64,000 bases of DNA. Origin: Deltaproteobacteria bacterium. GTDB lineage: Bacteria; Desulfobacterota; Desulfobacteria; Desulfobacterales; SpSt-501. Made by a program: the position numbers and the translations under genes. The stretch's first letter is position 1; each line of letters opens with the position of its first letter. The DNA is taken from positions 1 through 64,000 of the forward strand of contig JACRCN010000085.1 in assembly GCA_016219005.1 (NCBI GenBank), given 5' to 3'. A model generated the notes under the pieces. It made no database searches, had not been told where the DNA came from, and was given only the letters and a program-made list of their open reading frames with translations. This document shows positions 123 through 47,419 of the stretch, piece by piece.

Positions 123-210
123 AAAAAAAACCCTGTTAGGGGGGGGTGTCCCTAACAGGGTCAGTCGGAGGTGGGAATGAAGGAAAGGAGGTAACTTCAT
201 TCCGTTTGGC
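123..210 (-). ncRNA. Putative sigma-54-dependent small RNA with anti-Shine-Dalgarno loop
   Basis: Read on the minus strand, the predicted ~88-nt transcript runs from about 210 to 123. Its first hairpin has a perfect 9-bp stem (203-195 with 182-174) and a 12-nt loop, UUACCUCCUUUC, which contains the sequence of the 16S rRNA 3' tail (anti-SD). A single-stranded linker carries a second CCUCC (about 173-161). A perfect 11-bp stem (160-150 with 141-131) followed by eight U residues (130-123) is a textbook Rho-independent terminator. A near-perfect sigma-54 promoter lies at the right distance upstream. No minus-strand protein gene lies to the right to explain the terminator. Inference: the loop can pair with strong SD sequences (AAAGGAGGU) and repress translation, or bind another target. 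No known family was recognised. Confidence 0.7.
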
Positions 211-219
211 AATGTACAC

Positions 220-235
220 TGCAAATCTGGTGCCA
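220..235 (-). promoter_or_regulatory. Sigma-54 promoter of the small RNA
   Basis: On the minus strand the sequence reads TGGCAC-CAGAT-TTGCA, a full match to the consensus TGGCAC-N5-TTGCA with correct GG-N10-GC spacing. The predicted start is at 209-210, just 5' of the first small-RNA hairpin. Sigma-54 promoters need an enhancer-binding activator; which one acts here is unknown. Confidence 0.8.
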
Positions 236-2031: not shown

Positions 2032-3132
2032 ATGTTTTTGAACTTCATGAAGAAAGAGGAAGACGGCCGCGACACCGTCGATCTCACGTCCGAGCTCGAC
2101 CGTAGCGATAGAAAACGCGCGTTTTTACTGCTGGCGGTGCGGGCCCTGCTGCAGTGCACCCGGGAGTTCGTCCTCGATGTCAAGGAGCTGGACACACAGG
2201 CTTTTAAGGCGGGCCTTGCGGAACTCGCGGAGAGGCTGGCCGCCGAAGAGAAGCTCAGCCGCGTCGAGGCACTGTTTGAGTCGCGCAAGAGCGGAATCAG
2301 CTCGTTCGCCCAGCGTCAGAAGGACTACTTGCGCGAGCGTGAAACGGAGTTTAAAGATATCATCGACATCCTGTCCAAGGCGATGGTGGCCATGGACTCC
2401 GAGAACCGCGACTACAACCACAGCATCCTCGAGCAGAGCACACGCATCGAAGCTATCACCCACCTGGACGACATCAAGCGGATCAAACAGACCCTCCTGC
2501 AGGAAGTCGAAAACATGCGCGAGGCGGTGCGCGATAAGGAATCCCGCGACGTCGCCAAGATCGAGTCCCTGTCGAAGCAGGTTGCGGTCCTGAACACCGA
2601 GCTCGAGAGCGCACGCACCGAGTCCGAACGCGACGGGTTGACCGGGGTCTTAAACCGCCGCACGTTTGACCGCTTTCTCGGCGAACTGGTGGAGAAGAAC
2701 ACGGTGAAAGAGCAGAATTTCGCGCTGCTGCTGATCGACATCGACGACTTCAAGCGCATCAACGACAGCTACGGCCACCCCGTCGGCGACAGCGTGCTGA
2801 CGGCGGTGGCCAACAAGTGCCGCCAGTCGATCCGTGGCGAGGACTTCCTGGCACGCTACGGTGGCGAGGAATTCGCCATCATCCTGCCAGGCGCCTCGCT
2901 TCGGAATGCCGTCAAAAAGGGCCGGCATATCTGTCAGACCATCGCCGCCACGCGGTATCTGTTGGAAGGGGTGGATTCCGGAGATCCTCTCGGACTGACC
3001 GTCAGCATTGGTGTCAGTGTCTGCGGCAAGGCCGATACGGCGGCGGCGATGGTCAATCGCGCCGACAAGGCGCTCTACGCGGCCAAGGGCTCTGGCAAGA
3101 ACCGGACGTGCTCGGAGAAGGACGTCCGGTGA
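2032..3132 (+). CDS. GGDEF diguanylate cyclase with helical N-terminal region
   Basis: The C-terminal half (about residues 200-360) is a GGDEF domain that makes cyclic di-GMP from GTP. The active-site signature is GGEEF at about 277-281. An RxxD inhibitory site (RGED) lies five residues before it, so product inhibition is expected. The N-terminal ~190 residues are charged and helical, with likely coiled coil at about 100-195, which may mediate dimerisation or input. No membrane segment is seen. It follows cheW by 27 nt, consistent with chemotaxis-linked cyclic di-GMP signalling. A 247-nt gap follows before the next gene. Confidence 0.9.
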   Translation: MFLNFMKKEEDGRDTVDLTSELDRSDRKRAFLLLAVRALLQCTREFVLDVKELDTQAFKAGLAELAERLAAEEKLSRVEALFESRKSGISSFAQRQKDYLRERETEFKDIIDILSKAMVAMDSENRDYNHSILEQSTRIEAITHLDDIKRIKQTLLQEVENMREAVRDKESRDVAKIESLSKQVAVLNTELESARTESERDGLTGVLNRRTFDRFLGELVEKNTVKEQNFALLLIDIDDFKRINDSYGHPVGDSVLTAVANKCRQSIRGEDFLARYGGEEFAIILPGASLRNAVKKGRHICQTIAATRYLLEGVDSGDPLGLTVSIGVSVCGKADTAAAMVNRADKALYAAKGSGKNRTCSEKDVR

Positions 3133-3842: not shown

Positions 3843-4733
3843 ATGGCCACGACGGACCCCATCCCCTCGAAACCGCTCGGAAAAGTTCGGGCCTACATCC
3901 TTCGGATTGCCGGGCTGTCCACCACGGCCCAAAAAGCGTTGCGGATCTGCAATGAGCCCAACACGTGTGCCAACGATCTGAACCGGGTGATATCCCTTGA
4001 CCCCGTGCTCACCGGCCGGGTGCTGCAGCTCATCAACTCCGCCTATTACTCGCTGCCGAGCAAGGTCAACTCGCTTACCCGCGCGATCATCCTCCTGGGC
4101 TTGAACACGGTGAAGAACCTTGTCCTGAGCTTCGCTCTTTTCGAAAGTTTCTCCAAGCGCGATACCTTTCGGGTTTTTTCGGCGGACGACTTCTGGACGC
4201 ATTCCCTGAGTGTCGCGGCGGCCGCCAAGCTGCTATCCATCCAGAGCGGGGTGCCGCCCGCGGAGCGGGAGGACTTTTTCGTCGCGGGTCTGATGCATGA
4301 CATCGGAAAAATCCCGCTGAACCATCTGTTCCCCGACGAATACCGCCAGGCGGTCGAGCTGGCGCTGGGGTCGGGCCGAGCCACGCGGTTCGGGGAGGTG
4401 GCCATGATCGGCGTCGACCACTGCGAGGTCGGCAACCTCATCGCCCGGAAATGGCAGCTGAGCCCCGCGCTTGTCGCCTCCCTCGGCTGCCATCACGATC
4501 TGCCGGGAGAGGCGGAGGCAGGCATGCGCATGGTCGGCGTTGTCGGGCTCGCCGACGTCCTGGCGCATGGCATGGGGGCGGGGGTCCCCGGCGGCAGCAG
4601 CCTGGATGAGAACGAGCGGCAGCGCGCGCTTGCCGCCTGGAACCTGACAGCTGAAGCCTTGGCGACGCTCACGGCCGCGGTGGCGGTCGAAATCGAGAAG
4701 GCGAGGGTGTTCCTGGAAATCGCCCGAAGGTAA
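3843..4733 (+). CDS. HDOD-domain signalling protein
   Basis: This 296-residue protein is an HDOD domain: an N-terminal five-helix part (LDPVLTGRVLQLINSAYYSL, then ITRAI/LGL-type helices) and an HD-like half with GLMHDIGKIPL retained. HDOD proteins are non-enzymatic or weakly enzymatic signalling modules often found with chemotaxis and cyclic di-GMP genes. Here it sits between the small unknown protein and the metallo-beta-lactamase-fold gene (4-nt gap), so it is in an operon. Retention of the HD pair leaves phosphohydrolase activity possible, but most of the family lacks it. Confidence 0.88.
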   Translation: MATTDPIPSKPLGKVRAYILRIAGLSTTAQKALRICNEPNTCANDLNRVISLDPVLTGRVLQLINSAYYSLPSKVNSLTRAIILLGLNTVKNLVLSFALFESFSKRDTFRVFSADDFWTHSLSVAAAAKLLSIQSGVPPAEREDFFVAGLMHDIGKIPLNHLFPDEYRQAVELALGSGRATRFGEVAMIGVDHCEVGNLIARKWQLSPALVASLGCHHDLPGEAEAGMRMVGVVGLADVLAHGMGAGVPGGSSLDENERQRALAAWNLTAEALATLTAAVAVEIEKARVFLEIARR

Positions 4734-5885: not shown

Positions 5886-5914
5886 TTGACAAAAATCTCC
5901 AAATGGGCTATTTT
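5886..5914 (+). promoter_or_regulatory. Sigma-70 promoter for riboswitch transcript
   Basis: TTGACA at 5886-5891, a 17-bp spacer, and TATTTT at 5909-5914. The predicted start, near 5921, falls exactly at the 5' edge of the riboswitch. Confidence 0.8.
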
Positions 5915-5920
5915 TCTAGT

Positions 5921-6051
5921 AATGCTTAATCCCGGCAACCGTCGGGAGCGGGGGACCCAGGTTTTTGGGGCGCATCGCCAATCGGCGAGGGATAACCTCT
6001 TCGGTCCTAGCCCATCAGCTAACCTCGTAGGCTTCGATGAGGAAAACCTTC
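5921..6051 (+). promoter_or_regulatory. Cyclic di-AMP riboswitch (ydaO-yuaA class)
   Basis: The class hallmarks appear in order: GCTTAATCC, GAGCGGGGGACCCA, TTGGGGCGCATC, AGGGATAACC, then TCAGCTAACCTCGTAGGC. These match the conserved blocks of the B. subtilis ydaO element. Known members bind cyclic di-AMP, usually switch genes off, and govern potassium and osmolyte genes. The downstream genes make a compatible solute, which fits. The expression platform is unclear: GAGGAAA (near 6040) can pair with TTTCCTC (near 6071), and a weak U-tailed hairpin lies near 6280. Confidence 0.93.
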
Positions 6052-46413: not shown

Positions 46414-47419
46414 ATACCTTCTCCTTAATTATTTTAGCAAACCAACTCCTGTTTTAATCTGAACTTTCCTCTTTCCTCGCTCATTCACCCCCTAAGCGGC
46501 AACCGGCCATTTCATTCTGAAACCCTTGGCTTTCCGTCCTCACCTCACGATGAGTTTGGTTTTCCCATAAATTTGAGGCGTTCTGCCAAAGATCGGAAAA
46601 CCATTGAACATTTCATATGCAAATTTTGTACAAATAAGCCCTAAAAAATATTATTATTTAAATCTAAACAGTTAAACAAAATTATCGGATATGACTTGAT
46701 TGGATTTTGTAGACGATTACTCAAATTTGGGTAAGCCATAGGGTTTAATTGTGGGAAATTTTTCCCATTTAAGCCTTGGATGCGAATGCCAGAAAAATCG
46801 AAAACTTTGTTCTATGAGCTTGGATTTCGATGGATCATTTTAACGGGGGAGAGGATGGTGGTTTGTAATGGAATCTCACCGATCAATGGCTGGAGCAACG
46901 CCATAGCGACAGGCTTAGATCACGGATTTAGTGCTTCGGCGGTACGTCGGTCGGATGGTATCAAAGGCTGGAAGAATTCTGCCTTATCGCTCAGCCCGTT
47001 GCAAGAAAAAGGGCGTCTCACTGCACGCCCTCAAATTTGTGACATTTTGTGACGGTCACCATTTCAGATTGGCTATTTTTACATGGGCTTTTCTATTTTC
47101 CGTCTATTGGTTATAGTGCCATTTTCTTCTTTAACGTAAATATCTTAAACCGTTTCAACTGGTTGCCGCGTTTACTGCCATGACGATTAGCGTACATGAT
47201 GAATCCTTCCGCGGTGTCAGTGCGCCCGGAGATTACAGGAGGGTACGGCCCGGGGCAAGGGGCGAATTCGACAATTTCGCTGGGGGCCGGCCCGGTTGCG
47301 CTGCCGCCGCAACTGGCCGGCGTTGACATCGCGTGCGGCATGGGGCATCCTGAACCACAGAAAACGACCCGTGCTCACGCTCATGCGGGCGGTAGCACGG
47401 GGCTTCCAAGGAAAGTATC
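46414..47419. other. One-kilobase AT-rich gap
   Basis: No convincing gene. Contents: the palindrome TGGGAAA-TT-TTTCCCA (46751-46766), a minus-strand terminator (47006-47031), and GTGAC-G-GTCAC (47049-47059) preceded by TTGTGACATTTTGTGAC repeats. The open frame 46780-47052 lacks a ribosome site and recognisable content. Base composition is clearly richer in A+T than the ATPase genes either side, as expected for a decayed or inserted segment beside the IS scrap. Confidence 0.55.
47006..47031 (-). terminator. Minus-strand terminator-like hairpin
   Basis: On the minus strand AGGGCGT-N8-ACGCCCT is followed by TTTTTC. It can also fold on the plus strand but without a T run. No minus-strand gene lies just upstream of it, so it may mark an unannotated transcript or be a remnant. 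Confidence 0.6.

Follow-up and report, generated by a model that had tools for sequence, protein, structure and literature searches.

The first nucleotides of the window, by which we mean the whole 64-kb stretch of DNA that was analyzed, raise the question of whether they harbor a gene for a small RNA (sRNA) that is transcribed from a sigma-54 promoter and mimics the 3' tail of 16S rRNA, and if so, which regulon it belongs to and how it acts. The original prediction placed a sigma-54 promoter, a hairpin, a second CCUCC and a terminator on the minus strand, and each of these parts was found where it had been placed (Table 1). Also in agreement with it, no open reading frame (ORF) of at least 60 aa on either strand overlapped positions 1 to 437. 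The terminator was followed by the predicted run of eight U, but its stem arms measured 12 nt each (100% complementary) and not 11 nt. The loop was said to equal the rRNA anti-Shine-Dalgarno (anti-SD) sequence plus its flanks; ten of its bases (ACCUCCUUUC) are indeed common with the 16S tail used for comparison (GGATCACCTCCTTTCT), but the flanks do not match. This comparison sequence was found exactly in 3 of the 12 genomes searched and had no match in the window's own genome.

Table 1. Features of the sRNA locus and of its neighborhood in the window
Feature	Position	Strand	Remarks
Sigma-54 promoter TGGCAC-N5-TTGCA	220-235	minus	Sole exact TGGCAYN5TTGCW match in the 64-kb window
Predicted sRNA, ~86 nt	123-209	minus	Start set by -24/-12 spacing
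Hairpin 1, 9-bp stem GGAATGAAG (203-195) / CTTCATTCC (182-174)	174-203	minus	Predicted fold
12-nt loop, DNA TTACCTCCTTTC / RNA UUACCUCCUUUC, anti-SD motif 1	183-194	minus	Inside hairpin 1
Linker CCUCC, anti-SD motif 2	167-171	minus	Unpaired in the window's predicted fold
Intrinsic terminator, C-rich loop, eight U	123-162	minus	Stem arms 161-150 and 141-130
Candidate enhancer, decayed FleQ-like palindrome GACGGATTTTTGAC	391-404	minus	169 bp upstream of the sigma-54 promoter
HTH_17 DNA-binding protein, divergent neighbor	712-1467	plus	Pfam PF12728
CheW chemotaxis protein	1486-2004	plus	Pfam PF01584, E 3.5e-37
GGDEF diguanylate cyclase	2032-3132	plus	Pfam PF00990
HDOD protein	3843-4733	plus	Pfam PF08668

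The predicted transcription start and the RNA length follow arithmetically from taking the GC of the promoter as positions -13/-12. When one mismatch to TGGCAYN5TTGCW was allowed, the window contained 3 matches, and since this number is below the 4.45 expected, such matches are uninformative. The predicted RNA fold had an energy of -34 kcal/mol, compared to a mean of -15.7 for shuffled sequences (z = -7.1). No Rfam family reached its gathering threshold on the element. The two matches above gathering elsewhere in the window were a c-di-AMP (ydaO) riboswitch (5913-6048, plus strand) and a c-di-GMP-I riboswitch (46495-46570, minus strand). Between the sRNA promoter and the candidate enhancer lies a 20-nt inverted repeat with a 1-nt gap and 95% complementarity (331-371), and by eye none was seen at the corresponding place in the relatives compared.

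A covariance search of related genomes had been proposed as a check, and a lack of homologues with conserved promoter, stem, and loop as one outcome that would refute the element; such homologues were found. In a DNA search of 58 genomes, including that of the window, the element turned up in each of the remaining six members of the genus and in four genomes from other families. A covariance model of 11 RNA sequences from which the promoter was excluded (R1) detected it at E <= 1e-6 in nine families of the order (29 of 291 genomes); at E <= 0.1, the number rose to 45, and the weaker matches were excluded from the counts. A broader model (R2, 29 sequences) gave 24 matches at E <= 0.01 among 291 genomes drawn for the class, four of them weak and lacking a clear promoter. 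The same model gave 12 matches at this threshold among 297 genomes of the phylum, namely, the window's genome, three convincing homologues outside the class (G413, G546, and G588; E <= 4e-7), and eight unconvincing ones. Throughout, model matches with E values above 1e-6 were excluded, and those inspected (L050, L052-L055, and L060-L068) had no clear promoter. The set of 37 homologues compared below leaves out G277:C124 (E 3.6e-7). Three loci of family f109, outside the class (L060, L063, and L065), contain another hairpin-linker-terminator element with CCCUCC motifs, as in GGUGUUAGG...CCUAACCCCUCC of L060, and have no recognizable sigma-54 promoter.

The promoter was also left out of a pattern scan for the hairpin and CCTCC in one genome each of 84,980 species. 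The 36 matches comprised 22 from Deltaproteobacteria (records titled Desulfobacterales, Desulfobacteraceae, Desulfatibacillum, Deltaproteobacteria, or Olavius Delta 1 symbiont) and 14 from other phyla. A sigma-54 promoter 15 to 20 nt upstream of the stem core was present in 21 of the 22 deltaproteobacterial matches and in none of the 14 others. The exception (L096; CP070704.1) is a second sRNA copy in one chromosome, in which hairpin and terminator are kept and the sigma-54 promoter is absent. Because its parts recur in other genera, in other families, and outside the class, the combination of promoter, hairpin, linker CCUCC, and terminator is, judged by sequence comparison, more than a chance arrangement. 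The predicted gene, an sRNA with anti-SD motifs behind a sigma-54 promoter, is thus kept in related genomes and has no coding potential, and we consider it almost certain that the element is real and conserved.

In an alignment of 29 sequences, hairpin 1 was almost invariant, with 95.4% of the cells paired and a single pair changed on both sides (G-C to C-G, in 4 sequences), and the terminator had five pairs changed on both sides and 98.0% of the cells paired. The covariation score of these sequences exceeded that of all 500 shuffles, and the count of pairs changed on both sides was reached by 39 of the 500. At least one anti-SD motif was present in every one of the 37 homologues, and the longest match to the 16S tail ranged from 7 to 11 nt. 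The loop had been regarded as the key motif; the linker CCUCC turned out to be more constant (35/37 homologues) than the loop CUCC, which was recorded in 28 homologues by an automatic parse and in 31 by eye, the parse having misread L024, L073, and L074, where the loop copy is present. In the predicted folds, however, it is the loop copy that remains free in those homologues that have it. In these folds, at least one CUCC was fully unpaired in all 33 homologues considered (L073, L074, L093, and L096 lie outside this set), and the linker CUCC was partly paired in 10 of the 31 homologues carrying it. The loop of most relatives starts with UUUC, and the stretch common with 16S rRNA is CCUCCUUUC. 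In one family (L043-L046 and L056), no such motif is left in the loop, and the linker has the 16S-tail sequence CACCUCCUUU.

A promoter of the form TGGCAY-N5-TTGCW, with its GG and GC spaced by ten bases, preceded 36 of the 37 homologues at a conserved position, although it was absent from the RNA search models, and U-rich tails were found 3' of the terminator stem on the strand equivalent to the minus strand of the window. RpoN (TIGR02395 above its cut-off) was detected in all 12 genomes searched, including that of the window. We therefore regard it as very likely that the sRNA is driven by sigma-54. Hfq was detected in none of these 12 genomes, in which the controls were detected. The literature searched contained little on sRNA regulation in Desulfobacterota.

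The setting of the gene among flagellar and chemotaxis genes is an addition to the original account. The window starts at a contig end, so that the downstream side of the sRNA lies outside the view; on the other side, the neighbors are those listed in Table 1. Relatives of the HTH_17 protein also adjoin the sRNA in L105, L106, L109, and L111 (identified by Pfam in L111 and by BLAST clustering in the others). Flagellar or chemotaxis genes were found within 10 kb in seven of nine neighborhoods, i.e., the window and L105 to L112. These include FlgK and FlgL in L107, L108, L109, and L111 (named in L107 to L109 by BLAST clustering with the Pfam-tested L111 proteins), CheB, CheD, and CheX in L111, FlgN in L109, MotA/MotB in L108, and a series of FliR-FlhB-FlhA-FlhF-FlhG-like proteins with a sigma factor in L106. 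L110 has a MotA/ExbB-OmpA pair, which may alternatively represent a Tol/Exb-type system. No flagellar gene was recognized in L112 or in L105, where the neighbors are HDOD, response-regulator, and HTH proteins, and no flgE was recognized among the genes adjoining the sRNA, the names being assigned partly by eye. FliF was present in 24 of the 29 sRNA-bearing genomes and in 129 of the 262 others (Fisher p = 6e-4, with shared ancestry ignored and on the assumption that both searches drew the same 291 genomes); the five sRNA-bearing genomes without FliF (G080, G122, G136, G223, and G259) are 73 to 89% complete. Most FliF-positive genomes (129 of 153) are without the sRNA, so it does not belong to the general equipment of flagellar control. 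We judge a tie of the sRNA to the flagellar regulon to be likely.

A candidate for the regulator site emerged upstream of the promoter. The palindrome in the window (Table 1) has three mismatches to GYCAA-N4-TTGRC, so that it was missed when up to two mismatches were allowed, and it aligns by position with GTCGGAATTTTGAC (L036), GACGGAATTTTGAC (L004), and GTCGGAAATTTGAC (L005). This box motif was first noticed by eye in the same loci in which it was later counted. Out of 35 loci tried, L006, L042, L046, and L048 could not be parsed by the promoter/hairpin expression; the remaining 31 contained 11 exact matches, compared to 0.1 expected, and 39 sites with at most one mismatch, compared to 2.3 expected. 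The latter were distributed over 23 loci, leaving 8 without a box. The excess occurred with a spacer of 4 only, ten other spacers being near background. At 11 of the 31 loci, a box with at most one mismatch was located at -167 to -181 from the promoter, and other loci had downstream box pairs that were 20 to 23 bp apart. In L107 and L109, an HDOD gene is preceded by a further sigma-54 promoter, located on the sRNA strand approximately 270 to 350 nt downstream of the sRNA start, and FleQ-like boxes lie between it and the sRNA promoter; the downstream box pairs in these two loci may serve this second promoter instead. An earlier form of the motif, TTGRCA-N5-TGYCAA, gave six sites with at most one mismatch, in two families only. 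The box matches the form of the FleQ consensus GTCaNTAAAtTGAC given in the available part of PMC6120874, where the FleQ motif is also described as unreliable in P. fluorescens, and that of a 14-bp inverted repeat, GTCAAT/ATTGAC, in the excerpt of PMC10723142.

In a partly separate assessment, we inspected five contig sets in which flagellar genes are present and which contain 22 strict sigma-54 sites. Fifteen of these sites had a box within 300 bp, compared to 11% of random positions. After removal of the five sRNA promoters, three of which have boxes, 12 of 17 sites retained a box, one of them sharing the boxes of the sRNA. Boxes were found at sites before motA-like genes (G034 and G211), a fliL-like gene (G022), and a flgF/flgG-like gene (G054), whereas none was found at the fliL-like site of G054, at the G034 site that precedes a pilin-like gene, or at two of the five sRNA promoters (the motA-, fliL-, flgF/flgG-, and pilin-like names were read from protein starts). 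GTCAA-N4-TTGAC-like boxes in G034:C10, G211:C666, G022:C59, and G054:C1 represent a candidate flagellar enhancer motif for Desulfobacterales, and the box offers a handle on flagellar regulation in this order. Possible activators are encoded beside fliF in G034 and G211: in each genome, an NtrC-type regulator is accompanied by a sigma-54 activator that has no receiver domain, and in G034 there is a PAS kinase as well. Sigma54_activat and HTH_8 domains were identified in the activators adjoining fliF, and the receiver-less activator of G034 matched ZraR best in the PDB (E 2e-88), followed by FleQ chains (E 1.5e-82). In the genome of the window, the FleQ domain PF06490 gave weak matches only, and we therefore name no FleQ there.

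Target searches were less conclusive. The original prediction recommended target prediction from the loop sequence, which proved of little use: in the seven genomes of the genus, with sRNA loci excluded, we found 25 loop-complementary sites with one mismatch, hardly in excess of the 20 sites of the reversed pattern. Among 23 loop-complementary loci besides the sRNA itself, 15 precede an ORF start, and four of these 15, picked by eye, correspond to the solute-binding families DctP, Peripla_BP_6, SBP_bac_6/8, and SBP_bac_3. When 53 ortholog groups from five contig sets were ranked by duplex energy, flgC came first (uncorrected p = 0.0075), followed by flgB, flgE, fliL, and flgG (names assigned by eye); none of the 53 groups survived correction. 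In 12 genomes, with the sRNA loci excluded, the complement of the 3' stem arm and linker was found at 71 sites when two mismatches were allowed, and the reversed pattern at 26, an excess that is ambiguous, as any pattern of SD plus ATG is expected to outnumber its reverse.

Comparison with known sRNAs was based on Rfam and on published reports, parts of which were available. Membership of a known Rfam family was rejected. On the window element, alpha-r14/NfeR1 (RF02344) scored 31.7 bits, compared to a gathering cut-off of 58.8 bits; in 11 relatives, ar14 gave no match at E <= 1, and other matches below threshold appeared, such as rnk_pseudo and FsrA. NfeR1 of Sinorhizobium and other alphaproteobacteria is described as an Hfq-independent, trans-acting RNA that silences mRNAs, including those of periplasmic ABC transporter components (PMC10746234, in part). 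It resembles the present RNA in being small and displaying unpaired anti-SD motifs, but it is built of three hairpins that each carry CCUCCUCCC and has a promoter of the sigma-70/LsrB kind, whereas here there are one hairpin and a linker behind a sigma-54 promoter. FlmE (CJnc230) of Campylobacter jejuni is, in the part of PMC11187230 available, an RpoN-dependent flagellar sRNA that represses flgM and Cj1387c at the ribosome-binding site, and the single-stranded region between its two stem-loops contains a potential anti-SD sequence. It is located downstream of flgE, is processed from the flgE mRNA, and also has an RpoD promoter; the element reported here is a stand-alone gene from another phylum, with its own sigma-54 promoter and terminator and a longer copy of the 16S tail.

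Two further sRNAs were set apart by their descriptions, not by sequence. Pxr (PMC5684412, in part) comes from Myxococcus xanthus, which lacks Hfq and was formerly counted among the Deltaproteobacteria. Its predicted promoter is of the sigma-54 type with an upstream enhancer region, and one of its loops is needed for function, but it forms three stem-loops, adjoins the NtrC-like pxrR, and is reported exclusively in myxobacteria. Dv_sRNA2 of the sulfate reducer Desulfovibrio vulgaris (PMC3333781, in part) is a target of the response regulator DVU0679 with expression on tiling arrays; it lies downstream of the gene of its regulator, and the part available says nothing on whether it depends on sigma-54. 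The available parts of both reports make no mention of an anti-SD sRNA. In the literature searched, which covers few subscription journals, there was no earlier description of the sRNA reported here.

Together, these data lead us to favor, with some reservation, an sRNA with a gene of its own in the flagellar sigma-54 regulon, which would act independently of Hfq and repress mRNAs by masking their SD sequences. This joint estimate was set where it is because the estimates for its components are not independent. The first step in the action of this sRNA gene would be the opening of the sigma-54 promoter by a FleQ- or FlrC-type activator bound at the GTCAA-N4-TTGAC-like box, presumably timed with the switching-on of the middle flagellar genes, as the sequences suggest. 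The resulting RNA of approximately 86 nt is predicted to fold into a conserved arrangement in which an exposed hairpin is joined by a short linker to the terminator. Its sequence shows that the hairpin loop and the linker present between them one or two stretches that copy part of the 16S 3' tail. Without Hfq, undetected in the genomes searched, the C-rich seeds could anneal to the strong SD sequences of a group of mRNAs and keep ribosomes from binding there, as deduced from similar characterized sRNAs. Masking of SD sequences is to be expected from the precedents of NfeR1, which has anti-SD seeds and does without Hfq, and of the RpoN-dependent FlmE with its anti-SD sequence, as both are described in the available texts, and by this analogy we hold it to be fairly likely. 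As leads only, we name two likely target classes, namely, solute-binding proteins that are highly translated and, for reasons of timing, the genes of the flagellar rod and hook.

If correct, this reading would add another phylum, and a different design, to the post-transcriptional flagellar control known from Campylobacter (FlmE) and E. coli, and mimicry of the 16S tail would be used by unrelated sRNAs under sigma-54. As the sRNA family is defined and conserved, with a recognizable promoter, a candidate regulator box, and a seed, its regulon is directly testable. A broader version, which we put forward tentatively and consider rather unlikely, would see a flagellar checkpoint RNA acting as a translational governor, that is, an Hfq-independent mimic of the 16S tail made when the sigma-54 flagellar class is on. 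The mRNAs with the strongest SD sequences would then be held back, those of rod and hook for timing and those of abundant solute-binding proteins to free resources, and flagellum building would be coupled to a reshaped translation via one conserved 16S-like sequence.

Several alternatives were weighed against the flagellar SD-masking sRNA. The gene may belong to another sigma-54 regulon (nitrogen, carbon, or stress), be merely located beside flagellar genes, and repress transporter and other mRNAs via the same anti-SD motifs. The presence of four solute-binding families among the loop-complementary start regions, reminiscent of the confirmed NfeR1 targets (PMC10746234, available part), would fit this possibility, as would the non-flagellar neighborhoods of L105 and L112 and the recognition of biofilm-gene promoters by FleQ in Pseudomonas (PMC10723142, excerpt). 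However, the four transporter proteins were chosen by eye from 15 in a search with almost as many sites for the reversed pattern, and both the flagellar neighbors and the box common to motA-, fliL-, and rod-type promoters argue against another regulon, which we consider unlikely. We judge it improbable that the RNA is a decoy or sponge whose 16S-like sequence captures SD-bearing RNAs or other sRNAs and that has no defined mRNA targets. While every homologue counted carries one or two 16S-like copies, and in three families a conserved element that is unrelated to the sRNA and lies near hisB-like genes contains the partly complementary GAAAGGAGGTCAGAATGAAG, a search of the window's genus (seven genomes) did not find this element, and NfeR1 and FlmE act on defined mRNAs according to the available parts of their descriptions (PMC10746234 and PMC11187230).

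The remaining alternatives dispense with the regulatory RNA. A functional plus strand, either a leader or a small gene whose hairpin hides the SD-like AAGGAGGTAAC, would account for the perfect SD sequence on the plus strand of the loop. Nevertheless, in the seven genomes of the genus, no start codon of an ORF of at least 60 aa followed this sequence within approximately 20 nt, and the consistent location of promoter and U-rich tails on the strand of the sRNA makes this option highly improbable. The ATG that GGAATGAAG carries in 29 of the 37 homologues may be taken to start a small peptide encoded from the stem, but it is absent in the other eight (L043-L049 and L056), and loop lengths of, for example, 12, 13, and 16 nt shift the frame; this is the least probable reading of all. 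That chance promoter-like and hairpin sequences form an artefact that is not transcribed is likewise highly improbable in view of the joint conservation of promoter, hairpin, motif, and terminator in nine families and outside the class.

The element near hisB-like genes came to our attention through a complementary site common to four genomes of three families, which proved to form part of this separate RNA-like element. It occurs in L233 to L245 (e.g., G120:C254:250-332 in L234) near hisB/hisA-like genes, named by eye, and consists of a GGGTGG hairpin followed by a near-invariant GAAAGGAGGTCAGAATGAAGCACTATGACG; an apparent short ORF is not conserved. There was no Rfam match in the four loci checked. 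This element, which is partly complementary to the sRNA, was detected in 13 of 291 genomes at E < 1e-15, belonging to families f8, f29, and f54.
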